This document shows, piece by piece, positions 35,614 through 62,400 of a stretch of 64,000 nt of DNA. The notes below the pieces were generated by a model. It saw only the letters and a list, made by a program, of their open reading frames with translations. It did not search any database and was not told the origin of the DNA. Every line of letters starts with the position of its first letter. Within the stretch, counting starts at the first letter, position 1. Source of the DNA: Bacteroidota bacterium (GTDB lineage Bacteria; Bacteroidota; JABWAT01); contig JAKLJL010000004.1 in assembly GCA_023151185.1 (NCBI GenBank), positions 11,586 to 75,585 on the forward strand, in the 5' to 3' direction. Both the position numbers and the translations under genes were made by a program.

Positions 35614-35850
35614 GGCAGCACCTTGTTTTTAAAAGCTAATTGAGCGAGGAAGTTAAACAGGTGTCAATTTTACCCGAAAAATGCCAAAGATTCAAGCCGG
35701 AGACCGGGAAAAAAGGACCCGGGACGGAAATAAAAGCAGGAAACCCGGCCGGGCCCGGCAGATTTCCCGGGACCCGTCTGCCGGGAGTCAGCGGGTGGGG
35801 GTTGGGGTGCTCCTGAATACAGGCAGGATATATAGACAAATTAAACCAGG

Positions 35851-36176
35851 TATAAGCCGAGGCATACGGGTTCAACGGGTCGGGTGACAGGAGCCGCCTG
35901 GTTTGGGGGTTCCGTCGATGGACGGATTTCCGCTATGCTTCAACAGTCAGTCTGGCTTTGTAATTATAGAGATCCAAATCGGCGTCACATTTTCCGACAG
36001 TGGCCGAAATTTCGGTTTTACCTCACCCAGCCCGGTATAGGTGAAGTTACAAACAATAAGCCCACTTTTTTAGAGTAAACCGCATCTCCAAACGGAGAGT
36101 ATTCATATAATTCTACCTTCCGGTTGGTTACTCCTGTTGCTGCATTTAAAACTACTTTTGTAGTGCCAAGGATTGA
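35851..36176 (-). pseudogene. Decayed RHS-repeat core fragment
   Basis: Read on the minus strand, three frames each give a recognisable piece of an RHS core in the right order. First comes GTTKVVLNAATG, then ELYEYSPFGDAVYSKKVG. A frameshift follows, then FTYTG, another shift to DLDLYNYKARL, and then RLLSPDPLNPYASAY. Stop codons lie between the pieces. The 51 nt from 35851 differ from the living RHS gene (37660-37720 region) at only about 6 positions. After YASAY the sequence changes, so the DPxG end and any toxin are lost. The 700-nt stretch 35614-36326 holds nothing else that codes; the rest of it shows no RNA gene or stem that I can call. Confidence 0.8.
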
Positions 36177-36185
36177 ATTGAACCT

Positions 36186-36218
36186 GCGGTCACTGAGCGA
36201 AGCCGAATTGTCGAAATA
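36186..36218. repeat. Extragenic CACTGAGC-type repeat element
   Basis: The sequence reads CGGTCACTGAGCGAAGC on the plus strand and ends GTCGAAAT. It resembles the short extragenic repeats containing TTCGNC...CTCAGTGACC that are scattered in many genomes of several phyla. Only one copy is seen in this window. It lies at the point where the RHS relic loses homology. Membership in a family is from general familiarity, not from a search. Confidence 0.4.
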
Positions 36219-36326
36219 GGGTCTTTCAGAATGAAATATTCATTTGGAGTAAAAACTAGTTTTTTATTTACTCATTTAGCAGTTGAATAAAATGTGACTT
36301 TAGAAAAAAATGCATTAATGACTGTT

Positions 36327-36809
36327 TTACTTAAAATCTGTTTTCAGGTTCAGAATGACTCCCAAAAATAAAAACAAATTGGAACACCTGCCATTGTTGA
36401 AAGTATTATTTTCATAAATGATAATTTTCTCCATTTTAAATCTTTCAACGTAAATAACGAACTTACAGCAATGTAATTTGTCAACAAAAGAATATTTTAA
36501 AACACTAAAGGCTTCCCCATTTAAGTCCTCCATTGTTTCCTCTTCATTTAGAAAATCCCCAACTGTGTCCCTTGTTGCAACGCCTGAGATTGAGTATTTA
36601 ATTGATTTATCAACTCTATAACTTTCAATATTAATGAACAATGTATCGGAATTAATTTCAGTAATTTCAATATTCTGAATTAAGGAATCGTTCTTAAATT
36701 GATAGAACTTTTGTGTTGAAAAAATACCATTCGCTAAAATATTAATCGAAAAAATAAAATTATAAACTAAAAATACGAATGAAGGTAAAACAATAAATGA
36801 TGGCTTCAT
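36327..36809 (-). CDS. AT-rich small exported protein, candidate immunity to the RHS toxin
   Basis: A 160-residue protein I cannot assign to a family. Residues 1-28 are a hydrophobic N-terminus that looks like a signal peptide or anchor (SFIVLPSFVFLVYNFIFSI), so the protein would act outside the cytosol. The rest is rich in Asn, Ile, Lys and Phe, with two adjacent Cys (HCCKF) and one more near the end. Base use is unlike the window: in one 60-nt line (36421-36480) I count 15 G/C. It starts 13 nt after the RHS stop on the same strand with AAAGAG before the ATG. That order, toxin then small gene with foreign composition, and the export signal match the needed place of a peptidoglycan-enzyme immunity protein. 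The role is inferred. Confidence 0.6.
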   Translation of the reverse strand: MKPSFIVLPSFVFLVYNFIFSINILANGIFSTQKFYQFKNDSLIQNIEITEINSDTLFINIESYRVDKSIKYSISGVATRDTVGDFLNEEETMEDLNGEAFSVLKYSFVDKLHCCKFVIYVERFKMEKIIIYENNTFNNGRCSNLFLFLGVILNLKTDFK

Positions 36810-36822
36810 TATATTCTCTTTC

Positions 36823-39800
36823 TTATTTTGGCCAATAATAGTTTACGACGTTAGTTTTTTTATAATAACTATCAAGAGTTTTAACTTGATTTGATTGGTT
36901 TCCACCATATAAACTGATAAATCCTTCTTTAGCTCCAGGCCCAATGTAAAAACCAACATGATATTGTCCATCTTTCAATGTTAGAGTAATGCAACCATAC
37001 CTTGGCTCAGTTAAAACAGTTCCCCAAGTGGCCCACGATTCGGCTCTACCGCTTCTTGTACCCGAATACCCTGCATTTGTCATGACCCAATTTGCAAAAG
37101 CTGAACACCAACCCCAGTTTAGAGTTCCAGGAAGCCCAGATAGTTCTGTTGCATCAAAATATTCGATAATTCTTGGTGAATTTTCATATTCGCCACTTGT
37201 AGATAAGATCTCTTTAACACCACTTTCTTTGAGTGCAATTTTCATCCAATCCGATGCATTGACCTCATTACTTTTCTCACTAACAACTTGTGTACTTTGT
37301 AAATCAGGCAACCCGGCTACGGGTAATTGTTGGGTCCTGTGCTCAGGGAAAACCAACCTTAACGTGTGGAGTGCCGGGGTTGAAATTATGTACTCTGGAA
37401 CTATTTCGCCATTATAAGACCTCATCAGTCTATCATGAGCTGCCAGCATATCTTTATGAATTCCAAATGGAGTTGTGTTTTCACCTCTTGCCCGGGCACC
37501 ATATGTCGCATTGGATGGGGCCCAATACATTTCCCAATTTAATTGCCACTGCAAAAAGTAATCTAATCGACAATCATTATCAATTTGCTGCTGATTTGTG
37601 AGTGTTGAATTCATCCCGCTTGGATCCACAAGAGAGATTGGGTTATTCCCCACATAAATATAAGGCGAGGCATACTGGTTCAAGGGGTCGGGAGACAGGA
37701 AGCGCCTGGTCTGAGGATCATACAACCTAGCTTTGTAATTCATAAGACCCAGATCGGCATCCCATTCCTGCCCGGTGTAGGTAAAATCGGTTTGTGCAGT
37801 CCCAACAAGTTTTGAATACAGAACCTCACCAAATGCTGCATACTCATACACGCCAACCGTTGCTCCCGTTTGGCCATTGTAAACCACACGCACTGACCCG
37901 AGGTGGTCTTTCTGCATAAAATAGTCGACTGAGCTCTGCCGGAGGGCAAGAACTCCGTTAAGGCCATAAATATAGTGTTTGATGGTCTCCGTTCCGTTCA
38001 CACCGGTTTTTTCCCGGATCTCAAGAGGCGTACCGTCTGCTGAATTCAGGTAGAGGCGGTATTTGGTGGTACTCCCGGTGGTCGTTTCCTTCAGCACTCT
38101 TGCGCCTGAACTTTCATAGGAAAGCTGGACCGTTGAAAGGGTAATTCCACCCGATTTCTTAACAGCAGTTCCTAAAAGATTGGAATAGGCATCGAATGTG
38201 TATTCATCCACCACAGCAGGAGAGCCTTCCCCGTCATCGTAACTGCTTGTTTTTAAAAAGCCCGAATTGTCGAAGGTATTAGTCCATGAGGTTAGTGAAT
38301 TGCTGTTACTGAATGTGGATAATCTGGAATTACCGCTTTGATAGAAGTAGACCAGCGGGTCTGCACCCTTTGATGCGTTCAGGATATTACTGTTCAAATC
38401 GTAAATTGCCGTTAGCCCACTACCAACCCCCAGGTCTCCCTGTGCAAGATACGAATTGGAGGATACATAGTCAGCAGCAGTTAACTGGCCGAGCTTATCG
38501 TAGGCATACCGGACTGTATAATTGCCCGGTGTACCGGTTACAGACAATCCTGAATAGGAAAAGGCGACAGATGCTATTTTACCATCCTTATAGCCCAGAT
38601 TGTCCCCATATCTTCCGGTAGTGTAAGTAAGGGCTTCATTGAAATACCCCCCGGAGATTCCGGTCAGCCAGCCCGGAGAGTTGTAATTGTATCCAACAGC
38701 TTTATTAACACCATACGTTGCCTGGTTTTCCTGTGAGAGCTGGCCCGTTAACATATTATAGGTATATAGGGCATAATAATCTGCATCCGATGGTGTCCCG
38801 ACGGTTTTCAGTCTTCCAAATTCATCATAAGAATAATCTACCTGGTGCCCGGATGGGTAGGTTATCCGGGTAATCTGGTTCAACAGGTTATAGGTATAAC
38901 CTGTCTGGTAAGTTACCGTTGTAGAATACCGGGTCACTTTTTCCTTTTTTGTTACCAGCCGGTTAAGACTGTCATACCCATACTGCTCATCGACTTCTGC
39001 CAGTACATCCGTATTGGTATTGAGCAGTTTTCTGTAAAGCAGTCCTCTTACACCCAAAACCCAGGTTGTACCATTCCAATCGTAATCATAGAAGGATTTA
39101 ATTTTCCATTTTGAAGAACTTACCGGGAAATTGGCGTTATCAGCCTGGAGAATTACTGTATTCCAGTCCAGGGAATCCACAATCCCTTCTTCAACAATTC
39201 TGTTCAAAACATCATACTTAAAGTACTTAACCTGATCCAATACCCCACTGTAATTTTCACCGGAAGCCTGAAGAATAAACCGGAGGCGGCCAAGTTCGTC
39301 ATAAGCAATTCGCCCGGTACCCTTTTCCTTGGTTGTTGAAGAAACCAGGAGGCCACGGTTATCATAGGAGTAGGTTTCAATATACGAATCTGCAGGAGTC
39401 CCCTGGGTTGGGGGTGTAAAATAGTTGGGCGTAAAGACTTTGGTTACCTGACCTTTTGCATTATACTCATATTTTGTTTGCTGAAACTCGCCATCAATGT
39501 AATTTACACTGCCTGTTATATCAAATCTTCTTAACCCTGAATGGGAGGCCACAGTGTAGGAAATATATAAATCCAGCCCGGGAGTTGCCTGGTAACTACC
39601 CGTAAATGTGCCGCCCCCGGTTGTTTTGGAGACCTGTTTTGTATAAATATCCCCACCTCCTGGTGTTGTCCCGATTTTAAATTCGCCGGAGTAAGTATCA
39701 TTTTCATCAGCGGTACCCACCACGTTAAATGAGACCGTCCAGGAGATGGTCTGATTCCGGTAATTATGAATTATTTTACTACCGGTTTCCGCACTGGTAA

Positions 39801-42800
39801 GGTTAGACGCAAAAGTATATCCGCTTGTAAATTCTTTTAGCGGCCCGACTTTGTCGCCGATTTTTTTCCCTGAAAAATCAAAAGCCGAATACGTATAAAT
39901 TCCATCTTCTGGTTTATAGGCCGCACTGATCAGATACTTTGTCTCATCATCGCCATTAAACTGAACAATATTGGCATCATCCTGATATTTCATTTCAGGG
40001 CGGTCACCATTTCCTACCTGAAACTCTGTTCCGGGAAGACCTGCTTTTAATGCCCTAGAAAAGGGGGATTGCTCATAGACGGTTCTGAAATAGGGATACC
40101 CACCATCGGATGGATTTGAACTGAGAACAGTCCCGGAGATGGTATTATTTACCCAATTGTAGGTCGCATAATCAGTTTTGTAACCAAACGGAACTAATGA
40201 ACCCGTATAAAGTGCCGGTTTGGGTTGAATGGCTGGCCGGTTTGCGCTATCATAGATTGGTCCTGATACCACCAGAGACCCCCCGTTGTCAACCTGGGTC
40301 TGAATCAGGTTACCCGAGGCATTGTAATATTTCATTGCGGCAACCGGTTTAGACACCAGTAGCAGGTTATCTATTGAGGCTACCGTTCCCGCAGTCAAGG
40401 TGATCTTTAGAGTCCCTGAAATTGAAGACGGAGCCAGATAGTTCAGCGTTAATCTGCCATCTGCAAAGAATAGCAATTTATTAGAAATAACCTGGAGATA
40501 CCATTCTTTACCGGCGGTTACCATTGAAGCGGTTGACACCACCGTGCCGGAACTGTTTTGAATCAAAGACCAGGTTCCGTTATTTAAACGGACAGAGTAA
40601 TCTCCAACCGCCAGCTTAACATCATAGGCGGCAGATTCCCGGTTTAGCCAGAACCTGATTCCGGCATTTGAAATTGTGGATGGCGTGTAGGTTACATCGC
40701 CCGCCACTGTAGCCGAATTGTGGTAGAGAGTCCCGGATTTCCGGGAAAAATTCATCAGTGCCCAGTCGGTATTGTCATAATTAAAATTATAAAAACTACC
40801 CCCGTTTTGTGCAGAAACAGTCAAAGCAGAGTGGGGATCCCCAGATGAATAGGATGTCGAACCAGCCTTTTTCAAGGTATTGAACCCAGTTGTAAAACCT
40901 CCAATCAGCCCGTTGGGATCGGTCCCGGAAAACGCGTCCAGAAAATTGTTGTAATAAAGAAAGGAGGTCTCCTGATTGTTCCCAAGCACCGCAACCGGCA
41001 GTGTTAGCACCGAATCCAGAACGGTAACGGATGAGACGGAGTAAAAGGGCATAAAGCGAATATCATCAACAACAACCGAAGCCGTTGTATGATCATTGTA
41101 AACATATGCCCTGAGGCGAAGCGGGGAGGTAACGCCTCCTCTGATTGCACCCAGATCGGCAACCACTGAAAAATATTTCCATTTGCCTGATGTATTGGTA
41201 ATGGGAGCAGAAAAAAGACCCGCTGCAGGATAAACGGTATTGTTATCTCCGTCTGCTTTAGAATGCAGAACAAGTGCAGCACTTCCATCGGTATATCCGG
41301 TCTCTGTTTTTACCCAACAGGAAAAAATATATTTACCATTTTGATCACTTGGCAGGAAGTCGCGTGTTGGGCCAAAAATTCTACCGGTTGTTTTTTTGGC
41401 AAGTTTGACCGCATACTTTCCGGTGTGGCCGTTTAAAACCAGATCATTTATCCCGGTGCCATAAAGTCCCCAGAAGTCATTTTCTGCAGAACCTGATGCC
41501 GAAACGCCTGAATCAAATCCAGCATAAGAAGCATCCCGGCCCACGCCGGAAGGCAAGCCTAATGTATTACGTGAGGCATTTGTAAAAGAAGCTACGGGGT
41601 ATTCTTTATCAGGGGTATACTGGGTTGAAATAAATTTTTCCTCGATATTTTTTGTTTCAGAGACCTGTCCTGAAGGGGTAATACCCGTTATCTCACGTGT
41701 TTTCTGCCAATAAACTGAGCTTGGTTCGGCTGCTCCTTCCCAACCGGAGAATTCAGGCATCTGATCTTCGCCACCGATAAACCGGTAGGTCTTCCAGGGG
41801 TACATTAGCCCAGTACCAGTGTTTGCCAAAAGGGTAATTTGGGCCCTGGTGTATTTTTCTCCATTTTTGTTAACCTGTAATACCGGAAGGTTTAGAAGAT
41901 TAATATTCCATGAAGCTGAATATGCCGGATATGAATAAGACAGGGTCGTTGATAAAATGGACTGATCTGAATTGATCAGTTCTGTTTTCTTTAACCGGAA
42001 AAGAGGACGACCGGTAGACTGTTCCGCAGTATCCCAATAATATTTGGTTACAATTTCTGCTGACCCCTTTTTCGTCTTTTGCTGATTCATGTAAACAAAA
42101 TCAACTTTTTTACCAAAAACTTCCGGCTGGTTCACCGTGTAATAATTGGTTACCGATTCAAGAAGACGGTTGTTGCTGTCATAAATTTCAGTTTTTAGTG
42201 GCCGTCCCAACAAAAGATCATAGTATTGGTAGCCGCCATTCCATTCTGATTTGGGTAGTGGAAAAGACGACAGGTAGTGGACATCATTCCGCCCGGTGTG
42301 GAAGTAGTGAATGGTTTTTCCACCAGTCGGGGGTATTACCGTCGTCTTGTAAAAATAGCCCTGCTGGTAGCTGGAGTTAAAACCACCTTTTTCCGGATCA
42401 AATTCATATGACCAGGTAATTTGTTTGTACCCGTCGCTGATCGTTACGGCACTTGCAACAATGGCGGTATAACTACCCGTCATTTGGTACTTCCCGGCCC
42501 GGTCAAAGGTATAGGAATCATTAAGCACAGTGGTACCGGTTTGAAACACCTTCCCCAAAGATTTAAAAAAGTTGCCTACAACCTGAACCTGAATGAGTGA
42601 GTTATCCTTAATGAAAACAATATTCCCCCGCTTACGGTTTGGCAAATTTTCATTTGGAAAACTTGCTTCCGGACTGTCGGTTAGATTATAGGCAAAGAAG
42701 TTGTCAAAACCTAAAGTTGGATATTTAACAGGGATTGTCCAAGACGGTTCGCTAAAATCCAGGTCAAAGGGATACTCACTTACTTCACCAATTAAAGGCC

Positions 42801-45294
42801 AGTTCATTCCACCATCGGTACGATACACTTTTTGGAAATTCACCAAAAAACCTTGTCCGGCTGCAAATGCATAGGTATCAGCCAGAATTGTAGAAGTCGA
42901 ATCAACAAAGGATGATGTGGCGTAATTCCATTGCCTTTTATGAAAATAATTATTTGCGTCAACCCAGAATAGTTTAAACAGGGGGCCAGGCTGAATGCTG
43001 AAAAAATGTGGAAAAAATTCCGACATTGCAACTGTAAAGGTAGCCCCAGTTTTTACAAAAACTTCGCAAATCTTTCCCTCATTTGCTGTAAAGACCACCA
43101 TTCCGTCCCGGAAAACGAATTTCCGGCCTGAATAACTGTTATAAGAACTGGACACATTAATTTCTTCCTGGTGAATCACATTATCTTTATCCGCATAGGT
43201 GTAGAAATAGATATGATCATTTCCGGGAAAGCCATAGACTGACGCAGTAGTACTATTTTCAATTAGAAATGGGGTTCCTTCATTAACATTGTGGTAGGCT
43301 GTTGTCGTATTCTGCTTCCAGGAGCCACTGTTGTCCCGGTAGAAATAAATAATTTTATCCGGTGCATTATTATTTACCTGATAGATTCCAAACCCATTCG
43401 GTGAGTTGGCAAGAATCTCATAATTCTGTATCCAGTCAGAGCCGGTTCGGTAATAGGTGTTGTAGGCGAATGCCGCATTATTATCGGCCCTGAACTTGGT
43501 CCACTGGTTATTCTTTAACTCAAAAATGATTGTTTTTCCGGTATTCTCACCGACTAAAGCAAACCAGTCATCTCCCTTTGCAATTTTTAAATGATTATTA
43601 TTGTTTTCCCAATGTTCGGTGTAATCGACCTGATCTTGCTCCCCAATTATAAGATCCTGATCACCTCCCTGGTTATAAAAATCCTGAACAGACCAAAGCC
43701 CATTTGAGTTTTTTGTTATAAAAATTACCCTTTTCTGTTTAATTGACCAAAAATAATTGTAAACGATGGCATAATAGTTTTTCCCTGCAAACAGTGAAAT
43801 GTTATAAATCTGATCATCCCCAAAATCTGTATGCCAATGTCGGTCAATTAACCCGGTAAATTCGGTTGTTAAAACAGTAGTGAAATATCCGTTAACTTTT
43901 TCGCACAGGTTCAGGCATAATTTCCCACCGGCGCTTTCCTGCTTTTTAACATAAAGAACGCTGTTTTCTCCTTCAATCATATCATATTCATCAGTTGGAT
44001 AAGATGCCGGGGGGAACCGATGTTCGTTTTCTGCATTATTTATAATTTGACCAGAGGAAAACGTTTTTGTTGTGTAGGTGAAGGTCGTTATTTCACCCAA
44101 AGGAGTGGTAATTGTTTTTAAGTTACAGAAATCAGCCAGATTAGAAACGGTTCCATAGCTAAATACTGTTGAAGGGTTTGTCTCATTAAAATAATTTGCT
44201 TCGCTTAAGCCAACCAAGACTCTTTTGATTTTTGCCCCAGTCCCGATAAAGTCATAGCTACAGGAAATGGTCTTTCGTTTTACTGAATTATTTGAAAACA
44301 CCTCGAATTTTGAGATATATCTCGGATTTGAAGGCTCCTGATAAAAATACACCGGCAAATCCCCGGGTTGATTGAGTTTAAGTTCGTTACTGGTTTTATC
44401 CCCATAAGTTATCAACAACCGGTTATCCCTGTTGTCTTTTATTTCTGAAAGGTTTTGATATCTGGTGAACAAATTTCCTGTACTTTGCCCGATTTGTTTT
44501 TCCTGAATCTCGTAGGAAAATGTGGTTTGGTTCCCAAATAAATCCCGAATTGTGTAGAGGGACCACTGAATTGCTACCTGTCTCTGAATCCGGGTGCTTC
44601 CGTTGAACACTTGAGCTGTCGGAATAAACTGATCATTGGTTGTGACAACCCATACAATTGAATTTCCCTTGCTCTTTTTATTCTCCCCGTCCGTATAATA
44701 ACCATTTACATGACAATCCATATAATAGCCATCCACTCCTCCGAACGTAAAAATGACCCCCTGATCACCCACAACCTCCCACTTATCAATCAATTCGTCG
44801 TAAAAGTAGGTAATCCTAAAAGCGGTCCCCTTCTTTGTTATTAAAGAGAGTTTTTTATTAACTGGATCATCGGCTACAACCTGAAGGGCGTAACTATTCC
44901 CCCCAATTTCCAGAAAATAGTCGTCATCTGCCATCACAGCAGTTCCTTTTGTGTCCCGGCGTACCGAATTAATTGTATATGACCAGCCAACACCAAGTAC
45001 ACCTGTCGGATTTTCCAAATTATCCCGGTTCGCAACTCCATCTATCGAGGAGTGACTTCTGTAATTAATTGCAAAGGAAATTCCTGAGTTACCCTTTCCT
45101 TCAGTTTCGGCTATCGGGTATGAAAAACTGACCTGGCCGGTAAACATATCAACTGAGTTAACTCTGCTTCCTTCAAGACTGCCCTCACTGCTAAAACGGG
45201 CATTTGAAGAGGGGCCCACCAGTGCAACTTGCCCAAAAACGCTCATAGGCAAACATAAAAGCACTGCACTTTTTAAAACAGAAAGATAAGACAT
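36823..45294 (-). CDS. Secreted RHS-repeat toxin with C-terminal TIGR02594/NlpC-P60-like amidase
   Basis: A 2,823-residue protein. Residues 1-21 are a Sec signal ending SVFG-Q. An N-terminal part with VDMFTGQVSFSYPIAETEG and GVGWSYTINSVRRD resembles the SpvB/TcB-like start of RHS proteins. The middle holds a long beta-rich region and a CBM4/9-like sandwich (about residues 1270-1410). Then come YD repeats (YSYDNRGLL, YSYDEFGRL, YAYDKLGQL) and the RHS core (KDHLGSVRVVYN, YEYAAFGEVLYS, ARLYDPQTRRFLSPD, YIYVGNNPISLVDPSG). DPSG is residues 2557-2560, the usual self-cleavage border. The variable tip, residues 2561-2823, has ALKESGVKEI, WCSAFANWV with C2730, HVGFYIG with H2779, and YGGNQSNQV, which I recognise as TIGR02594, NlpC/P60-like peptidoglycan hydrolases. 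Cys and His are both intact. TCTGGAGA is 9 nt before the ATG. There is no T6SS PAAR region and no T9SS sorting domain. Confidence 0.88.
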   Translation of the reverse strand: MSYLSVLKSAVLLCLPMSVFGQVALVGPSSNARFSSEGSLEGSRVNSVDMFTGQVSFSYPIAETEGKGNSGISFAINYRSHSSIDGVANRDNLENPTGVLGVGWSYTINSVRRDTKGTAVMADDDYFLEIGGNSYALQVVADDPVNKKLSLITKKGTAFRITYFYDELIDKWEVVGDQGVIFTFGGVDGYYMDCHVNGYYTDGENKKSKGNSIVWVVTTNDQFIPTAQVFNGSTRIQRQVAIQWSLYTIRDLFGNQTTFSYEIQEKQIGQSTGNLFTRYQNLSEIKDNRDNRLLITYGDKTSNELKLNQPGDLPVYFYQEPSNPRYISKFEVFSNNSVKRKTISCSYDFIGTGAKIKRVLVGLSEANYFNETNPSTVFSYGTVSNLADFCNLKTITTPLGEITTFTYTTKTFSSGQIINNAENEHRFPPASYPTDEYDMIEGENSVLYVKKQESAGGKLCLNLCEKVNGYFTTVLTTEFTGLIDRHWHTDFGDDQIYNISLFAGKNYYAIVYNYFWSIKQKRVIFITKNSNGLWSVQDFYNQGGDQDLIIGEQDQVDYTEHWENNNNHLKIAKGDDWFALVGENTGKTIIFELKNNQWTKFRADNNAAFAYNTYYRTGSDWIQNYEILANSPNGFGIYQVNNNAPDKIIYFYRDNSGSWKQNTTTAYHNVNEGTPFLIENSTTASVYGFPGNDHIYFYTYADKDNVIHQEEINVSSSYNSYSGRKFVFRDGMVVFTANEGKICEVFVKTGATFTVAMSEFFPHFFSIQPGPLFKLFWVDANNYFHKRQWNYATSSFVDSTSTILADTYAFAAGQGFLVNFQKVYRTDGGMNWPLIGEVSEYPFDLDFSEPSWTIPVKYPTLGFDNFFAYNLTDSPEASFPNENLPNRKRGNIVFIKDNSLIQVQVVGNFFKSLGKVFQTGTTVLNDSYTFDRAGKYQMTGSYTAIVASAVTISDGYKQITWSYEFDPEKGGFNSSYQQGYFYKTTVIPPTGGKTIHYFHTGRNDVHYLSSFPLPKSEWNGGYQYYDLLLGRPLKTEIYDSNNRLLESVTNYYTVNQPEVFGKKVDFVYMNQQKTKKGSAEIVTKYYWDTAEQSTGRPLFRLKKTELINSDQSILSTTLSYSYPAYSASWNINLLNLPVLQVNKNGEKYTRAQITLLANTGTGLMYPWKTYRFIGGEDQMPEFSGWEGAAEPSSVYWQKTREITGITPSGQVSETKNIEEKFISTQYTPDKEYPVASFTNASRNTLGLPSGVGRDASYAGFDSGVSASGSAENDFWGLYGTGINDLVLNGHTGKYAVKLAKKTTGRIFGPTRDFLPSDQNGKYIFSCWVKTETGYTDGSAALVLHSKADGDNNTVYPAAGLFSAPITNTSGKWKYFSVVADLGAIRGGVTSPLRLRAYVYNDHTTASVVVDDIRFMPFYSVSSVTVLDSVLTLPVAVLGNNQETSFLYYNNFLDAFSGTDPNGLIGGFTTGFNTLKKAGSTSYSSGDPHSALTVSAQNGGSFYNFNYDNTDWALMNFSRKSGTLYHNSATVAGDVTYTPSTISNAGIRFWLNRESAAYDVKLAVGDYSVRLNNGTWSLIQNSSGTVVSTASMVTAGKEWYLQVISNKLLFFADGRLTLNYLAPSSISGTLKITLTAGTVASIDNLLLVSKPVAAMKYYNASGNLIQTQVDNGGSLVVSGPIYDSANRPAIQPKPALYTGSLVPFGYKTDYATYNWVNNTISGTVLSSNPSDGGYPYFRTVYEQSPFSRALKAGLPGTEFQVGNGDRPEMKYQDDANIVQFNGDDETKYLISAAYKPEDGIYTYSAFDFSGKKIGDKVGPLKEFTSGYTFASNLTSAETGSKIIHNYRNQTISWTVSFNVVGTADENDTYSGEFKIGTTPGGGDIYTKQVSKTTGGGTFTGSYQATPGLDLYISYTVASHSGLRRFDITGSVNYIDGEFQQTKYEYNAKGQVTKVFTPNYFTPPTQGTPADSYIETYSYDNRGLLVSSTTKEKGTGRIAYDELGRLRFILQASGENYSGVLDQVKYFKYDVLNRIVEEGIVDSLDWNTVILQADNANFPVSSSKWKIKSFYDYDWNGTTWVLGVRGLLYRKLLNTNTDVLAEVDEQYGYDSLNRLVTKKEKVTRYSTTVTYQTGYTYNLLNQITRITYPSGHQVDYSYDEFGRLKTVGTPSDADYYALYTYNMLTGQLSQENQATYGVNKAVGYNYNSPGWLTGISGGYFNEALTYTTGRYGDNLGYKDGKIASVAFSYSGLSVTGTPGNYTVRYAYDKLGQLTAADYVSSNSYLAQGDLGVGSGLTAIYDLNSNILNASKGADPLVYFYQSGNSRLSTFSNSNSLTSWTNTFDNSGFLKTSSYDDGEGSPAVVDEYTFDAYSNLLGTAVKKSGGITLSTVQLSYESSGARVLKETTTGSTTKYRLYLNSADGTPLEIREKTGVNGTETIKHYIYGLNGVLALRQSSVDYFMQKDHLGSVRVVYNGQTGATVGVYEYAAFGEVLYSKLVGTAQTDFTYTGQEWDADLGLMNYKARLYDPQTRRFLSPDPLNQYASPYIYVGNNPISLVDPSGMNSTLTNQQQIDNDCRLDYFLQWQLNWEMYWAPSNATYGARARGENTTPFGIHKDMLAAHDRLMRSYNGEIVPEYIISTPALHTLRLVFPEHRTQQLPVAGLPDLQSTQVVSEKSNEVNASDWMKIALKESGVKEILSTSGEYENSPRIIEYFDATELSGLPGTLNWGWCSAFANWVMTNAGYSGTRSGRAESWATWGTVLTEPRYGCITLTLKDGQYHVGFYIGPGAKEGFISLYGGNQSNQVKTLDSYYKKTNVVNYYWPK

Positions 45295-51965: not shown

Positions 51966-54900
51966 TTAACGGATCAACTGCATTTTTTTAACTGCCGTTC
52001 CGGATGAAGACGTCACCCGGTACCAATACAATCCGGTTGCAGCCATCTCACCCGAGTCTGTTGTCCCGTTCCAGGTCACCGAATACCGGCCGGCAGTCTG
52101 GAATCCGGCGAGCAGGGTTTTAATTCTCTGCCCGGTTACCGAAAAAATCACAACTTCTGCTGAACCGTCTTCCGGAAGGTCAAGAGTAAACCGGGTTCCC
52201 GGGTTGAACGGATTCGGATAATTCTGCCCGAGGGCAAATTTTTCAGGAACCGGCTGGTAGTCGAGTACCGAAATCAACCCGAACTGATGTTCTTCACCAC
52301 TTAAATCGACCGATTTGATTGAATAGGTCACCTGTACCGGTTCTCTGGACGAAAATTCATCGGCCATCCGGTATTCGGTCCGGCTGGAAGACCCGGATTG
52401 GGCCGGACGGAGCAAAGCCTGATTAACCAGGACAGGGGGTTCACTTCCCAATGACCTGAAGACAAAAAACCCGGCATTGTTGGCTTCGGACTCCGTTGTC
52501 CAGGAAATTGAAATTTTCTTCCCGTGCTGAACTGCCGAGAAGGAGCTGAGTTCAACCGGCAGGGAATTATCCGCCTTGTCGCTGCCGGCGGTAAAGTCAC
52601 TGAATCCGGTCAAACCGGACCGCCGGATAACGGGTGAGGCATTGGATCCGGTCGCGGCCACATGGGTGCCAGCAAGAGTCCAGGGGGAGGAGGAATCGGT
52701 CCGTTTCAGCAGCCTGAGCTGGGTATAATCGGTTACTCCGTTGAAATTTTCACCCGTCAGAGCCAGATCATAGGTTCCGCCCGAAAGGCCGTTTCCGGCC
52801 GTTATTGTCCAGTATCCGGTATTGGCTGTTGCGTTGATCACATAGCCGCCGTCACTGACTGGCAGACCGTTCATTCCGGCAGAATGACTGACGAAGGCAG
52901 CCGTGACCGTACCGGCTGTGGTCGGTGCAGAGGTGAAACTGAGATCCACCTGGGTGTTGGCAGTTACGATCCCGATCGGGAAAATGCGGTTCGATGCGGT
53001 TGCCGTTCCAAACCATCTGCGGAATTTCCCGAAAATCCGGCCGGAGGAATGCACCAGCGTTCCGGTAACCGATCCCGAAGTCCCCAGAATCAGGACATTG
53101 GATCCGGTTGATATATTTCCGGATGTCATTGTCAGGGTACCTGAAACCGACGGATTTCCCGACAGGGTAAACCCATCACTGTCATCCAGTTCCAGGTTTT
53201 CGAACAGTCCAGAACCCATGATGGCGGCAGCAGCAGTATTTCCCTGCATCAGAATCTGACCGGGTCCGGTTTGGGTTCCGTTAATTGAAACATCCCCTTT
53301 AACCGTTACCGAATTGGATCCGGTATTCAGAACACTGCCGGCACCGATCGTCAGGTCATTTTCAAGGGTCAGACCAGCCAGCAGGGTTACGCCGCCGGCA
53401 GAAACGTTGGTCACCGAGAAATTATTAAGGGCGGTTATCCCAACCGGAATTGAAATTCCGGATGCCGAGCCGCCTGCAATCAGGGTAGAGGTTGTCCCGG
53501 CAGACAGGTTGGCCGTTGTTCCGGCAAGCGGGTTCCGGATTTCAAGCGACTGGGAACCTACGGTTAAAGATCCATCGGTCAGAGTTAAAATCCCGGCGAC
53601 AACTGTTGATCCGTTCAGGGCAGCACCGGCTGCATCATTCAGTTCCAGATTCCCAAGCGTGACTCCGCCAACTGAGTGAGTTGCACCGCCGGTGAGCAGA
53701 ATTTTACCCGATCCGGTATGTACACCCAACGTTCCGGTGACATCTCCGTTGACAGTCAGGGTATTGGAGTTATCATCCAGGGTTCCCGAAGTCAGGGTCA
53801 GGTCACCCGTCAGGGTTTTGGGGGTGGCGGCTGCAAGTGTGATGGAGGAACCGTTCTGAACTGTCACGTTTGCGGGTCCTGAAGAAGAAGGCCACTCGCC
53901 GGATGTCGTTGTATAACTTCCGCCGTTGTTATAGGTGAGCGAACCTGATGCGCCGTAGGCTGCATTTGACGCCGAGCCGACACTGGTTTCAACAAATCCG
54001 TTGGCGTTGATCTGAAGTGTTCCGTTCACGGTAAAAGTCCCGTACCTGGCCATAATTCCCCGGTCAAGGGCCAGAATGGAACCTGGATTCACCGTGATGG
54101 TATAAAATTTTCTTCCGAGTGTGGCTCCGGTAACTGACCGGGTTCCTCCAACCGACGCCAGAGCACCGGATACAACCAGCGAAAGGTCATTTCCGCCACC
54201 AACATCCACACCGGTAATGGTTCCGCTGCCGTTGACCAGAAGCTGGGAATTTGAACCGGACAGGGTCAGGGAATGCGCTGAAGACGATTGAAAATCACCG
54301 CCATCAAGGGTTAACGTTCCTTCGACATCAATATTGGCCTGAAGCACCCGGGTTCCGGATTCCAGAGTCAGATTGTAAAACGAAGACGCAGAGCTGATGT
54401 TTCCGGCATCCCGGAAGGCAACCGTGCTGGTCCCTTTGGTAAAGGAGCCCACAGACCAGTTTCCGAAAGTTGAAATCGTACCGGAGTTTGCCGTCAGGTT
54501 CGTGAAAGCCGGAGCAGAAGACCCGTCGATCCTGGCTGAACCGGAGAATACAACCGTACCGGTTGACGGAGTGAAGGTCCCGTTATTGGTAAACCGGGCG
54601 CCATCCGAAAAAGTCAGTTGGCTGGAGGACAGGTCCAGACTTCCGCCAGAAATGACCAGAGACCCGACCGAGGCATTGACATCCAGTGTGACTGCATGGG
54701 AAATGCTGACTGAATTTCCGGAAGAGGGAATCGAACCTCCCGACCAGGTAGAGGCCGAGTTCCAGTTTCCGCCGGAAACGGAGGTGTAGTATTTTTCTGC
54801 TGCTGTATAATAGGCAGAAAACCCGGAAAGCCCGGAGTAACTGACCTGATTGTTCAGGACATCCAGGCTCAGGGTGCCGCCGGTTTGTTCTGACCAGGTG

Positions 54901-57900
54901 GTGCCGTCTGCCGAGTTATACAGGACCAGGTTGCTTTCGAGCAGATAGTTCAGTTCGTTGGTCTGATCGTAATTCAGAGTCAGAGAAGTTCCGGTATTGT
55001 TCCCAAGGCTGACAAAATAGTACCGCTTCAGGGAAGCAGCGCCGGAAACTGACCGTTCTGTGTGATACCGGCGGATCTGAACAGCACCCGGATCGGAGGA
55101 AGTTGTGAGCAATAACCCCAGTCCGCCGCCGTTATAATTGGTCAGGGTCACACCCGGAGTTGCTGAAAAGGAGATATATCCGGTTCCGGAGCCGTTAGAG
55201 TTCAGGACTGTTGCACCGGGAGATTCGGAAAGGCTTGCAGCAGATGTCAGCGTCAGGATATTATTTCCGTTCAGATCCAGATTTCCGGCCGTCACTGTCA
55301 GGGCAGAGGTCACCGTGAGGTCAGAAGCAAGAGAAAGCAGGCCGGATGACGTCCGGTTCAGGGTCAGGCTGCCCAGCGAGTTTGAGCCCGGCGTGAAGGC
55401 CACAGTTCCGGCAGACCCGGTTCCGGTCACCGATAAACTTCCGGCACCGCTGACCGAAGTCACGGTTCCCGAGGTTCTGGACATCACTCCGGAAACCGAC
55501 AGGGTATTGGACCCAAGTGCCAGTTCACCGGCAGTCAGGATCAGGGTTCCGGTTACAGCAAGGTTGGTTCCGAGGGTTATTTTTCCGCCGGAAGTTCTGT
55601 TGACGGTCAGGGAATTGAGGGTTTCTGATCCGGTTGTAAACCGGATTGTTCCCGCATCACCGGTCCCTGCTACCGATACTGTGGAGGAAGCAGATCCGGT
55701 GATGGTTCCGGATCCTGAAATTCCGCCAGCCGAGACCGTCAGGGTATTTCCGTTAAGGGTCAGCACATCTGATGAGGAGTTGAAGGCCAGGGCATTTCCG
55801 CCGGACGGGGCGGTCGCAGTCAGATTGGTTCCTGAGGCCAGAGTCAGGTTGGTGACATTGCCGGCACCGCCGATCAGGACGTAAGGAATGGTAACTGTTC
55901 CGGATCCGGTCTTCGTCAGGGTCTGAACCCCCTGTTTCCTGAAAAAGATAGCCCTGTTGTTGGGTGTAAGAGACCCTGAGCTGCCGATGGTGACATCATT
56001 GAAGGTGTAGAAATCACCGCCCGAAGACGCCGAAAGTGTCAGGGTGCCGTCAATCTGGGAAGTCCCCAGCACGGTCAGTCCGGCGGTCATGGCCGTTACA
56101 TTCAGGCTCAGGGTTGACCCGGCATCGACCGTCAGGTTCCCGGCCATCTGGCGGGCGGTTCCTGTTCCGCCGTTCCCGAGATCCAGTGTGGTCGAGTTAC
56201 TGATCTGAACATGGTACGGATATCCGGCACCTGTTGCAGCCGACCACTCGGTTGCCCGGCCGTAGGTCGTTCCCGTGTTGTATTTGAGTACCGATCCGGA
56301 GGCAAACGTGGGGGCATTCGTGGCAACATATCCGCCGTTATTGATCTGCAGCGTGCCGTAAACTGTACTCAGTGAAATCCCGAAATTCAGTCCGGAAGTC
56401 AGCAGGACGGTTATGCCTGAACCGAAGGCAAGAGTCCGGCTATTGGTTGAGGTTACGGTTTTGGTTCCGGTCACCGCCAGGGTTCCGGTTGTCCCGCCAA
56501 TGGTTCTTTCCGTCCCGCCCGTTGAACTTCCGGCAAGAAGGTTGCCGCCATTACCCGAAAGCGTGAGGGTGTGCCCGTTCAGATCCATCTGACCGTCATT
56601 TAAAATCTGCAGGACATCGCCTGTGGTCCCGGCAAGAGTTAAATCAGTTCCTAAAATCAGATTCCCTGACGGCTTATTGACAATCAGATAAGCCAGACTG
56701 ACAGCAGCCGTATTGGTTAAAGTCTGCCCGGAAGTTCCGGTAAAAAAGACTGCCCGGGAATTGGCGTTGAACGTACTGCCGGCAGCAAAAGTTAGATTCC
56801 CTGCTGAAACGAGGTCACCGCCGGAATTGGTTGAGAGGGTCAGCGTTCCCGATACCGAAAGATCTCCGGTCACCGTCAGCGTATTGGTCATTGTCTGAAG
56901 GCTGACGGCCGAACCCGATGCAATGGTCAGATTCCCGCCGGTAGAAAACGCCGTTGATCCGGATCCCAGATTCAGGGTCGTGGATCCGGTTACCACGACA
57001 TGATAAGGCGACGTCGTGTTCCATTCTGAGTTGCGGGAGTAAGCCCCTCCGGTATTGTAGGTCAGGGTGGACCCGGATGAATAAACCGGGGCGGTATTGG
57101 TATAGCCGCCGGCATTGATCTCGAAGGTACCTGTTACGGTAAAGGTCCCGTTATTGGTCAGACCGTTTGTGGTCTTAAGAGTTGAACCTGAGTTCACCGT
57201 CAGATTTCCTGATCCTGAAATGGTTCCCCCGTTGATGATGGCATCCTGATCGAGGGCTACCACATGACCGATTGAAACTGTCCCAATCGAAGTGGCTGTT
57301 GGCGGAACCTGATTGGCATTCCAGGTGGAAGAAGAACTCCAGTTTCCGTTCTGAACGGTTGACCAGGCTTGTACCGTGTAGGAATAGTTGGAACCGGCAG
57401 CATTTTGTCCGGCCTGATTGTAAATATTCAGGGAAACGAAGTCGGCGGTTGAATGGGTTGGGGTTAGATTGGGGGTGGTCAAAATATAGAAATCAACTGT
57501 TCCGGACTGGCGGGCGGGAATTACAGCAGTCCCTTGATGGCTCCCGTCCAGTGAAGAAATCTGAACAAAAGAAGAACTGGTCCACCCATCTGTTGTATAT
57601 CTGAGGTAAAGCAACTCCCCCGAATTCAATGCTCCGGCCATGGTAACGGTGACTGTAACCTGCTGCCCGGCATAAACAGAGGACGGTGACTGCGATACAG
57701 ATGAAATCGCCGTGGGATTGTAACTGGTTTCCAGCAGGGATAAATCATTCGAAGATCCACTGTTTTCACCAATGATCAGTGTGTAGTAGTTGAACTGGGT
57801 AACGTTGAAATTTATGTCACTTGCACCGTTATAAACTGCACCTCCCGAAAGAACAGTATTTACTGCCAGAGGGGTTGAATTGTTTGCAGTCCATTTAGGA

Positions 57901-58136
57901 GAGTAATTATCAGAAGCATTATTAAACAAAAGGGTTCCGGTCCCGGTGCTTCTTGATGACTGAATTCTGAAAAACCGATGGCTGCCCCGGTCAGTCAAAG
58001 TCCCGATGTTATTGTTAAAGCCTCCGTTTGCTGCGAAATCTCCTTCAACAAATACGGGTTGTGAAAAAACCGGAATCGTAATGAGAAATACCAAAAGCAG
58101 TGTGATTCCTTTTGGCAAAAACTGGTTTATCTTCAT
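51966..58136 (-). CDS. Giant repetitive surface protein with T9SS sorting domain
   Basis: A 2,056-residue secreted protein. Residues 1-25 are a signal peptide ending PVFSQ. The bulk is Ser/Thr/Gly/Asn-rich beta-helix-like repeats (GNLTVDAGSTLSL, VTGTLILTAGEL, GSLTVGSQSLEI), as in haemagglutinin-type adhesins. About three longer modules of 130-150 residues recur near residues 338, 596 and 1371 (EINAGGYTN, QINNGGYVA, QINANGFVE). Residues about 1900-1975 form a fibronectin-like segment (LPVELSSFSAVQHGKKISISW, FVFRSLGSEPP). The end has YPNPFNPGTRFTL and VTGQRIKTL with KKMQLIR, a type A T9SS signal. AAAGGAG lies 8 nt before the ATG and overlaps the region after the def stop. Adhesion or matrix binding is likely, not shown. 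There is no obvious enzyme domain. Confidence 0.9.
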   Translation of the reverse strand: MKINQFLPKGITLLLVFLITIPVFSQPVFVEGDFAANGGFNNNIGTLTDRGSHRFFRIQSSRSTGTGTLLFNNASDNYSPKWTANNSTPLAVNTVLSGGAVYNGASDINFNVTQFNYYTLIIGENSGSSNDLSLLETSYNPTAISSVSQSPSSVYAGQQVTVTVTMAGALNSGELLYLRYTTDGWTSSSFVQISSLDGSHQGTAVIPARQSGTVDFYILTTPNLTPTHSTADFVSLNIYNQAGQNAAGSNYSYTVQAWSTVQNGNWSSSSTWNANQVPPTATSIGTVSIGHVVALDQDAIINGGTISGSGNLTVNSGSTLKTTNGLTNNGTFTVTGTFEINAGGYTNTAPVYSSGSTLTYNTGGAYSRNSEWNTTSPYHVVVTGSTTLNLGSGSTAFSTGGNLTIASGSAVSLQTMTNTLTVTGDLSVSGTLTLSTNSGGDLVSAGNLTFAAGSTFNANSRAVFFTGTSGQTLTNTAAVSLAYLIVNKPSGNLILGTDLTLAGTTGDVLQILNDGQMDLNGHTLTLSGNGGNLLAGSSTGGTERTIGGTTGTLAVTGTKTVTSTNSRTLAFGSGITVLLTSGLNFGISLSTVYGTLQINNGGYVATNAPTFASGSVLKYNTGTTYGRATEWSAATGAGYPYHVQISNSTTLDLGNGGTGTARQMAGNLTVDAGSTLSLNVTAMTAGLTVLGTSQIDGTLTLSASSGGDFYTFNDVTIGSSGSLTPNNRAIFFRKQGVQTLTKTGSGTVTIPYVLIGGAGNVTNLTLASGTNLTATAPSGGNALAFNSSSDVLTLNGNTLTVSAGGISGSGTITGSASSTVSVAGTGDAGTIRFTTGSETLNSLTVNRTSGGKITLGTNLAVTGTLILTAGELALGSNTLSVSGVMSRTSGTVTSVSGAGSLSVTGTGSAGTVAFTPGSNSLGSLTLNRTSSGLLSLASDLTVTSALTVTAGNLDLNGNNILTLTSAASLSESPGATVLNSNGSGTGYISFSATPGVTLTNYNGGGLGLLLTTSSDPGAVQIRRYHTERSVSGAASLKRYYFVSLGNNTGTSLTLNYDQTNELNYLLESNLVLYNSADGTTWSEQTGGTLSLDVLNNQVSYSGLSGFSAYYTAAEKYYTSVSGGNWNSASTWSGGSIPSSGNSVSISHAVTLDVNASVGSLVISGGSLDLSSSQLTFSDGARFTNNGTFTPSTGTVVFSGSARIDGSSAPAFTNLTANSGTISTFGNWSVGSFTKGTSTVAFRDAGNISSASSFYNLTLESGTRVLQANIDVEGTLTLDGGDFQSSSAHSLTLSGSNSQLLVNGSGTITGVDVGGGNDLSLVVSGALASVGGTRSVTGATLGRKFYTITVNPGSILALDRGIMARYGTFTVNGTLQINANGFVETSVGSASNAAYGASGSLTYNNGGSYTTTSGEWPSSSGPANVTVQNGSSITLAAATPKTLTGDLTLTSGTLDDNSNTLTVNGDVTGTLGVHTGSGKILLTGGATHSVGGVTLGNLELNDAAGAALNGSTVVAGILTLTDGSLTVGSQSLEIRNPLAGTTANLSAGTTSTLIAGGSASGISIPVGITALNNFSVTNVSAGGVTLLAGLTLENDLTIGAGSVLNTGSNSVTVKGDVSINGTQTGPGQILMQGNTAAAAIMGSGLFENLELDDSDGFTLSGNPSVSGTLTMTSGNISTGSNVLILGTSGSVTGTLVHSSGRIFGKFRRWFGTATASNRIFPIGIVTANTQVDLSFTSAPTTAGTVTAAFVSHSAGMNGLPVSDGGYVINATANTGYWTITAGNGLSGGTYDLALTGENFNGVTDYTQLRLLKRTDSSSPWTLAGTHVAATGSNASPVIRRSGLTGFSDFTAGSDKADNSLPVELSSFSAVQHGKKISISWTTESEANNAGFFVFRSLGSEPPVLVNQALLRPAQSGSSSRTEYRMADEFSSREPVQVTYSIKSVDLSGEEHQFGLISVLDYQPVPEKFALGQNYPNPFNPGTRFTLDLPEDGSAEVVIFSVTGQRIKTLLAGFQTAGRYSVTWNGTTDSGEMAATGLYWYRVTSSSGTAVKKMQLIR

Positions 58137-59460: not shown

Positions 59461-62400
59461 CTATTTCAGCAGTGTCATTTTTACTACGCCGGTTTTCCGG
59501 GTGGTTTCCAGTTTAAGGAAATACACACCCGACGGCAGGGTCTTTCCGGAAAAATTCAGTGTGTGCCATCCGGCCGGCTTCAGTTCATTCCTGAGCAAAA
59601 CAGCAACTTCCTGTCCCAGAACATTAACGATTTTCAGTGTAACGGTTCCTGCCTCAGGAAGTCCGAATCTTACCCGGGTGTCAGGATTGAACGGATTCGG
59701 GTAATTTTGACTGAGGATCACTTCGGCCGGCAGTTCAGTCTCTGAAACCCCGGTTCCGCTGTGGCCGATTCCCTTCAGCGCCACCTTGACCACCGGCAGA
59801 TTGACTGCTGCTGTATGGATGTAAAGTGTATCGGTAATCATCGTTTCACCCGGAACCGTAAAGGAAACAGTCAGATCCAGAGAATCCAGCGGCGGAATGT
59901 TTCCAGGCTCTCCCGGCGTAATGATAAATGCCTTTGAATTGTGGTTCAGCGAAATGACCGGCAGAATATCCGTTGAGGTATTTTTCAGTTTCACCTTCCC
60001 GGTGACGGTTTCACCGCCTGATCCTTCCAGAACCAGCGATAACGGACTAACGGAAATAGTTGGCTTGATGACGTAAATACAGTCATCACTGAAACTTCCG
60101 GTTTTCAGGGAATAGGCACACGAGGCAAACGGTCCGCCGGTAAGTTTGGAAAAGTCGGGGTTGAATCCAAGATTTTTATAGGAATCGGCAGTACCCGTTG
60201 CAGTTCCCGGTATCGTCACATTCGAAAAATATCCGTTGGCAGACAGAATAAATCCGAACGCCGAGAATTCATCCAGATTTTGACCCAGAGCTGACCGGGC
60301 AATGGCGAGTTCCAGGCCCTTTTTCTTAAGCCCGGCGTTGTTTACCGCATACCGGAAACTGTTATCCGGAAAAACAGGACTTCCCTTCGGACCGGTGACC
60401 GTTGCAGATCCATCCAGCGGTGCACCATTTGCAGCAGTGGCAATGACCGCCCCGCCGGTTGATCCCTGAGGTCCATAACGGGCCAGAGTGACCACTGATT
60501 TCTGGGAAACGGCCAGCAGAGACAGAGCAAAATCTACTTCAAACCCCATTTTATAATTCTCGGATTTCGAATCCAGAGTCGAGTCGCCGATCTGCAGGTA
60601 ATGTCCCGATCCCTTCACGTTCCCCAGCGGAGTTCCGGGCGGTGCACCGGCAACCTGATCAAATCCGAACATCAGACCCAGTCCGTCCCCGTTGGGGTTC
60701 GACGGGTCAAGTACACATTCCAGACCGAGATAGACCGAATCTTCGGTTGCACCCAGGTACAGGACAGTAAAATCCTTGCCGGGACCAAACCCTGAGTTGG
60801 TATTTTGCTTGGTCGCTACCAGTTTGTAAAACGATTCAGACAGGTCACCATCCACCCGGAAGGACACAATGACCGGCTTCGGCTCAACGGTAAACGTCAC
60901 CGTTTTGGCATTATCTGCCGGGATCTGGTCGCCGGGCAGCGATACGGAGGCCGTTGCCTGATAAGTCCCGGGGGTCATGTTCTTAAATGCCGGAAATGTC
61001 ACGGCGGCAAAATCCTGTCCGCCGGCAGAACCGATCACAAGATCTTTCCTGAAAACTTCAGCACCGTCTTTTTTAATCTGGAAGGTAACCGGAATAGAGG
61101 TTTTCCGGAAGGTGGACTGGTTTTCAATGGTGAGCACTGCCTGGGCAGAGTCGCCTTCAATAAAGGATTTGTTCAGTCCCTTCAGTTCAAAAACAGCGGC
61201 ATTGGTGACGAAAGGCGACGGATAGTCGGTTGGAACCCAGATGTGGTAACTGTTCTTTTTGGTTTTGACTAAAACCCGGTTGTCGGCATAGACCTGAAGC
61301 GTATCCGGTGAATTCCCTGTCACGTCATACAGTTTCCGGTTTCCCCAGTCAAACGCCGAAACCCAGACGCCGATGTCATACTGATCAGAATTATTCAGGG
61401 CAAAGAGAACTCCGGTTTTACCGCCGGAACCATACCGCCGCATGACATAAACCCGTTTCGGATCTTCGGAAGCATTCCCCGGCCAGAAAGGTGCAAATCC
61501 GTCGGTGCGTGCAGTCAGAACCTCGTGCGCCCCCGAAACAAAACTCTTCCGGATGGCCAGCAGTTTATTGATTTCATCCCGCAGACCATACCAGTAATAG
61601 TCCCGGTACCAGACGGTTGCATACCCCGGGTGGGTCATCAGGTGGGCATAGGCAAGAACTTTTCCGCCAATAACCGGAGAGTGTCCGTCGCCGGATACCT
61701 TATTTTCAAAATCCAGCCGGTCGAAATCATGGTTGTCGACAAACGTGACCACCCGGTCCCCCGGCGCACCCTGGTTCACCAATCCCCGGGTATTGAAATT
61801 CCGGACGTCGTAATTCGGGCCCGCATCCGAGAATTCCTTATACCCGAACCGCATGTTGAAATCAAAGACCGAGGCCTGCTTCTGGGTTCCCGACATTTTG
61901 CCCAGCCAGTCTTTCAGGCGGCCCGTATCCCCGTCATACAATTCCCCGACCGAAAACTTTCCTTTCATGGCACCGGAATCCAGCCACCGTTTCAGATAAT
62001 TCCAGTGAATCCCTTTAACGAAATCGAACCGGAATCCGTCCAGATTCAGCCGGTTGGTCAGCCAGTTACCCCAGACGATCAGACTGTCACCAGCCGGAAG
62101 CGGATTCCCATCCCAGTCGTGAAGTGCCACATCGTAGGCGAACGTATTCTTGTAAAACTCGAAATACCCCCACTGTGATCCGAAAATATCGGACGTGTTA
62201 TCCGGATTGATGGCTCCGTTCGGGTAGACGTACTGGCCGCCGTTCCCCGGCGTACTTGAAAACCGGCCGGAGCCGTTCTTCAGGGAAAAGGCGGTAAAGG
62301 AAACCCGTTTCGGCGGGGTGAAGGAACTGTCATTCTGGGTGTATAGGGAACCATCCCAACCCACATACCGGCCATCGACCAGTGAAAAGGGGAAGTAACC

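Follow-up and report, generated by a model that had tools for sequence, protein, structure and literature searches.

RHS toxins are best understood as cargo of the type VI secretion system (T6SS), and the locus described here raises the question of what a very long RHS protein with a Sec-type N-terminus does together with the small, AT-rich gene directly behind it. In the window, the whole 64,000-nucleotide stretch of DNA that was analysed, these two genes very probably constitute a polymorphic-toxin cassette, in which a Sec-exported RHS protein carries a wall-hydrolase tip and an exported partner protein blocks that tip. The features of the locus are collected in Table 1.

Table 1. Features of the RHS cassette and its surroundings, with positions in the window.
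Feature	Position	Strand	Basis
Decayed RHS core end without tip, several stops	35846-36242	-	tblastn/blastn to window core and to the core end L049 of a relative
Partner gene, 160 aa, predicted cognate immunity	36327-36809	-	belongs to a family encoded just behind TIGR02594 toxin genes
Predicted signal peptide of partner, residues 1-26, MKPSFIVLPSFVFLVYNFIFSINILA followed by NG	36732-36809	-	crude hydropathy rule
RHS polymorphic toxin gene, 2,823 aa	36823-45294	-	ORF; Rhs_assc_core and RHS/YD repeats over cut-off
TIGR02594 cell-wall-hydrolase-like tip, residues 2683-2821	36832-37248	-	101.2 bits; pLDDT 81-98; viral hydrolase folds
Codon N2799 (GGNQ), presumed third catalytic residue	36898-36900	-	invariant, 61 sequences
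Codon H2779	36958-36960	-	invariant, 61 sequences
Codon C2730, presumed nucleophile	37105-37107	-	invariant, 61 sequences
Linker from border to enzyme domain, residues 2561-2682	37249-37614	-	no Pfam/NCBIfam match; pLDDT 40-68
Rhs-associated core end, residues 2485-2561	37612-37842	-	TIGR03696 (NCBIfam Rhs_assc_core), 74.7 bits, cut-off 32.5
DPSG border, residues 2557-2560	37615-37626	-	DNA identity with relative stops here
RHS repeat, residues 2135-2169	38788-38892	-	PF05593, 54 bits
Predicted signal peptide of RHS protein, MSYLSVLKSAVLLCLPMSVFG followed by Q	45229-45294	-	sequence reading; similar N-termini in full-length family RHS proteins

The anatomy of the locus is that of an RHS polymorphic toxin, with an Rhs_assc_core standing ahead of a C-terminal toxin domain. 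A preliminary description of this DNA had reported an RHS frame of 2,823 residues, a DPSG motif at residues 2557-2560 with a 263-residue variable end behind it, and an AT-rich partner gene 13 nt downstream; all positions proved exact, and the distance was confirmed from the open reading frames. The G+C content is 43% in the core, 38% in the tip domain and 27.5% in the partner gene, against 50% for the window. The same description had given the RHS protein a plain signal peptide and no PAAR or other T6SS part, and both statements hold: the N-terminus reads as Sec-type, and scans with Pfam and NCBIfam returned no PAAR. Rhs_assc_core occurs at seven places in this genome of 3.74 Mb, and relatives carry more.

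The identity of the tip is indicated chiefly by its profile family. The tip matches the NCBIfam model TIGR02594 with 101.2 bits (E 5e-29, curated cut-off 70.55) over model positions 2-132 of 132, far above chance, and this is the sole TIGR02594 match in the whole genome. The motif order that had been read from the letters, ALKESGVKEI, WCSAFANW (C2730), HVGFYIG (H2779) and YGGNQSNQV, is exact, and the placement of the tip among TIGR02594-type wall enzymes agrees with both the profile and the viral hydrolase folds described below. Of the three profiles named for checking it, TIGR02594 matched, Pfam CHAP (PF05257) remained sub-threshold (14.3 bits, gathering cut-off 26) and nothing matched Pfam NlpC/P60 at E 0.1; the related proteins L122 and L079 do exceed the CHAP cut-off. 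In an alignment of the tip with 60 relatives, obtained from a scan of GTDB species genomes, C2730, H2779 and N2799 are present without exception (n=61).

Structure prediction points in the same direction. In the AlphaFold model of the tip, the first 120 residues form an uncertain linker with pLDDT block means of 40-68, and the block means within the domain are 81-98. The Cys-His pair on which the preliminary description relied is retained in the confident domain, where the cysteine opens a helix (tip residues 169-180) and the histidine lies at the start of a strand (tip residues 217-226), a placement that in the model is as expected of papain-like wall hydrolases. A search of viral folds yielded nine matches with E ≤ 1e-3, the best being phage tail lysozymes, a Peptidase C51 protein, PlyB-like endolysins and proteins with CHAP and TIGR02594 domains. 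The corresponding search of solved structures gave nothing at E ≤ 1e-3, probably because the disordered 120-residue linker hampered it; comparison of the tip with the PDB returned a weak similarity to LytE (E 0.02), and profile A2 found no match there. Given the null result among solved structures and the sub-threshold CHAP score, the fold assignment is drawn from the profile family and the viral models. A C-terminal tail ending in ...TR is common to TIGR02594 proteins of several phyla (L122, L135, L145, L149, L155, L163 and L168); the tip of the window lacks it.

The domain by itself is no proof of a toxin, since many members of TIGR02594 are not toxins but enzymes that stand alone or belong to phages. 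One could suppose that the tip works on the wall of its own producer, in remodelling or in opening a passage for the large secreted RHS protein, with the partner acting as a regulator, and the occurrence of TIGR02594 domains in stand-alone proteins with peptidoglycan-binding repeats lends this some plausibility. The position of the domain tells against it, since it sits exactly at the RHS variable end, a site at which the tips and partners of relatives are unrelated ones. An orphan core end in genome G002 of the same genus (L049) encodes a protein 76% identical to the core end of the window; at the DNA level, counted in 30-nt bins, the two are 70-90% identical over the last 180 nt before the border and 16-30% identical past it, where L049 continues into a different 260-aa tip and then a different membrane-protein gene of 26% G+C. 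The swapped tip and partner that had been proposed as a comparison among relatives thus exists within the genus, with a conserved core and an exchange at a fixed border. The RHS gene is also absent from this site in two relatives: G001 and G002, both of the same genus, keep the amylase and M14 peptidase genes that flank the locus (80-83%), and no RHS gene follows the amylase gene in either. Together with the recurrence of the partner family beside such tips in other taxa, described next, these observations make a role on the producer's own wall improbable and favour a toxin cassette.

The partner protein itself offered few handles. Its N-terminus, claimed earlier to be an export signal, passes the crude hydropathy rule and reads as a signal peptide or anchor. 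It has no match in Pfam or NCBIfam, nine other partner proteins gave nothing usable in Pfam, and plasmid searches found no relative of it. A single-sequence search of 395 genomes returned only a channel-like protein in G139, a chance-like match; the single-sequence model was poor (mean pLDDT 50) and was discarded as a fold-search query for that reason.

More informative was the setting of other TIGR02594 tips. Fusions of an RHS core to TIGR02594 also occur in Flavihumibacter and Prevotella histicola, and in Flavihumibacter (L163) the gene for a 167-aa lipoprotein lies 11 nt downstream of the fusion. Relatives that carry the toxin without the small gene had been named as a point against the pairing; L163, the sole other RHS-fused tip with readable downstream DNA, has such a gene, and its exported product is a distant relative of the window's partner. 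In Campylobacter (L165) and Helicobacter cinaedi (L126), TIGR02594 frames overlap genes for signal-peptide proteins of 133 and 165 aa by 4 nt. All three partners are mutually related: with the Flavihumibacter protein as query, phmmer gave 2.7e-4 and 0.026.

A profile was built from these three proteins, all of them partners directly behind TIGR02594 tips, with the window's partner excluded. Across 395 Bacteroidota genomes it found five places at E ≤ 0.01, the window's partner among them with E 0.0017; the two best places were lipoproteins with no toxin beside them (L176 and L177). Run on local open reading frames, the same profile placed P0002 at rank 27 of 5,001, which is suggestive at most. 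A five-member profile, comprising the three proteins and the lipoproteins L176 and L177 from the same 395-genome search and again excluding the window's partner, recovered that partner with 28 bits (E 7.6e-7 against 8,478 local open reading frames), and its 27.8 bits compare with a maximum of 12.3 among 5,000 shuffles. The membership of the partner in this family is based on the 395-genome search with the three-member profile and on the five-member profile. On visual inspection, each of the six members has a lipobox or a signal peptide; a name for the family was found in neither Pfam nor NCBIfam, and its matches to the PDB are weak (E 0.06). Membership of a toxin-linked family is the strongest indication that the partner is a cognate immunity protein, which is its best reading, as the preliminary description had predicted, and both the adjacency and the exported, toxin-linked family support that prediction. 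On grounds of linkage and family, the locus therefore pairs a toxin gene with an adjacent candidate immunity gene, and the family appears to be an undescribed group of exported immunity proteins tied to TIGR02594 tips in Bacteroidota and Campylobacterota. The two lipoproteins L176 (G071) and L177 (G217), which have no TIGR02594 gene beside them and so speak against the cassette reading, are possibly orphan immunity genes.

The same export signals bear on where the tip would act. A target other than bacterial peptidoglycan, for instance a protein, a glutathionylspermidine-type substrate or something eukaryotic, might be considered, since the GspSA amidase has a CHAP-like fold and has been matched by part of a TIGR02594 T6SS effector (PMC13340143), and since the tip is without a solved-structure match. 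We give this little credence: the top viral folds are tail lysozymes and endolysins, and the partner, like every other family member seen, is exported, which places the action in the envelope.

The DNA directly behind the cassette points to an earlier tip exchange. In Enterobacterial-type Rhs modules, the core is conserved as far as a fixed border, beyond which tip and immunity are swapped together, and displaced orphan tips and old core ends remain downstream. The present locus resembles them in its fixed core border, in the joint exchange of tip and immunity and in the old core end downstream, and differs in that no PAAR domain or T6SS association was seen and its toxin domain would act in the envelope. 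The remnant at 35846-36242 is as expected if an older end was displaced by insertion of a new tip/immunity pair. That the cassette is itself a decayed or silent leftover, its frame intact and its expression or delivery lost, would suit this remnant and the broken pieces within RHS arrays of relatives, and is nevertheless very improbable in view of 2,823 codons without a stop, the retention of every catalytic residue and the purine stretch AAGAAAGAGA ahead of the partner ATG.

Predicted export of RHS proteins and of their partners recurs in the lineage. All full-length RHS proteins examined (L050, L051, L054, L056, L057, L058 and L060) have Sec-type N-termini, most of them ending in ...AQVG(A/S)PG. 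The crude export rule is passed by 13 of 17 RHS partner genes, compared with 41-47% of neighbouring genes (p 0.003-0.02), and by 11 of 15 once homologous pairs are removed (p 0.01-0.05); the excess is suggestive. Because that large a share of local genes passes the rule, an exported partner was rejected as sole evidence of immunity. The two clear non-exported partners beside intact tips are at L051 (border 8491, HH motif) and L063 (border 2785), and both tips read as nucleases by inspection rather than by a family match.

The route across the outer membrane was sought among known systems. The genome encodes the type IX secretion system (T9SS) component SprA, and no T9SS C-terminal sorting domain was found in the RHS protein with Pfam or NCBIfam. 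T9SS tails do occur elsewhere in the window: a 1123-aa alpha-amylase (59461-62832, minus strand) carries one over the cut-off, and a 2056-aa protein (51966-58136, minus strand) has a sub-threshold match, as well as a match to FlgD_ig. Searches for T6SS genes did not find TssB (PF05591) in the genome, with a control that did match; TssC (PF17541) gave no match in the genome, nor in its control. Neither mark of a T6SS Rhs effector was thus detected in these scans: no T6SS in the genome, and no PAAR or further T6SS component within the RHS protein.

From these elements, a mechanism can be proposed. The RHS protein would leave the cytoplasm through Sec, and its shell, by analogy with other RHS proteins, probably cages the tip and self-cleaves at the DPSG border. 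The released tip, a putative Cys-His-Asn peptidoglycan hydrolase of the TIGR02594/CHAP-like group, would reach the periplasm of a competitor, or of a sister that lacks immunity, and cleave the peptides of the wall there. The 160-aa partner, also predicted to be exported, would neutralise the tip by blocking it in the producer's own periplasm.

Such a cassette is a known kind of weapon, and several described systems share parts of it. In the catalogue of Zhang et al. (2012), Tox-NLPC/P60 is a class of RHS toxins recorded in Bacteroidetes, for which no immunity protein is listed (PMC3482391); the window shares with this class a papain-like Cys-His enzyme, predicted to cut the wall, at the RHS C-terminus, and adds a candidate exported immunity family. 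TIGR02594 enzymes also serve as T6SS effectors. In Stenotrophomonas rhizophila, the effector V5/Tae5 is antibacterial and has two immunity proteins with signal peptides, and a V5 and V2b double mutant is strongly impaired in killing Escherichia coli (PMC13340143); a TIGR02594 effector V5/Tae5 is likewise known in S. maltophilia (PMC13055248). The enzyme family is thus the same, and there an antibacterial effector, whereas the Stenotrophomonas protein is delivered by a T6SS with VgrG and the RHS protein of the window carries a Sec signal but no PAAR, with T6SS markers not detected. The TANFOR toxins of Bacteroidetes combine a Sec signal, a C-terminal toxin and an adjacent immunity gene in T9SS hosts (PMC7073777); the present locus has all of these in common with them, as well as an export route that is unproven, and differs in its scaffold, which is RHS and gave no TANFOR match in the Pfam and NCBIfam scans.

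The novelty lies in the apparently undescribed family of exported, predicted immunity proteins and, in addition, in RHS proteins that clearly have Sec-type N-termini although no T6SS was detected in their lineage. The family would supply the immunity protein for a toxin class left blank in the 2012 catalogue, and it allows candidate orphan immunity genes such as L176 and L177 to be recognised. With Sec-type N-termini on all full-length RHS proteins seen, and with most tip partners being exported or membrane proteins, the lineage is a clear test case for RHS toxin delivery in Bacteroidota without a detected T6SS. A broader view, tentative and on present evidence rather unlikely, is that in this lineage, which has a T9SS, Sec-exported RHS proteins are contact weapons that use an undescribed outer-membrane route and reach mainly the target periplasm, so that envelope-acting tips and exported immunities dominate, and that the partner family goes with this one tip in several phyla, whether its carrier is an RHS protein or not.

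Further arrangements of tips and small genes were observed among relatives. Orphan RHS core ends form tandem arrays at L060 (G003:C21), L063 (G003:C13) and L051 (G000:C1), each core end with a different tip and an AT-rich small gene, and at L060 a single frame of 388 aa spans one tip together with its signal-peptide partner. At L054 (G000:C22) and L058 (G002:C21), the RHS tips carry a DCSG/DCAG...H motif and are probably another papain-like wall hydrolase; the start of their signal-peptide partner overlaps the stop of the tip by 13-16 nt. At L079 (G209) and L081 (G265), lipoproteins of 371-436 aa are encoded 2-14 nt behind the genes for large CHAP/TIGR02594 proteins; these lipoproteins appear to be another partner type for the TIGR02594 toxin domain, unrelated to the first.
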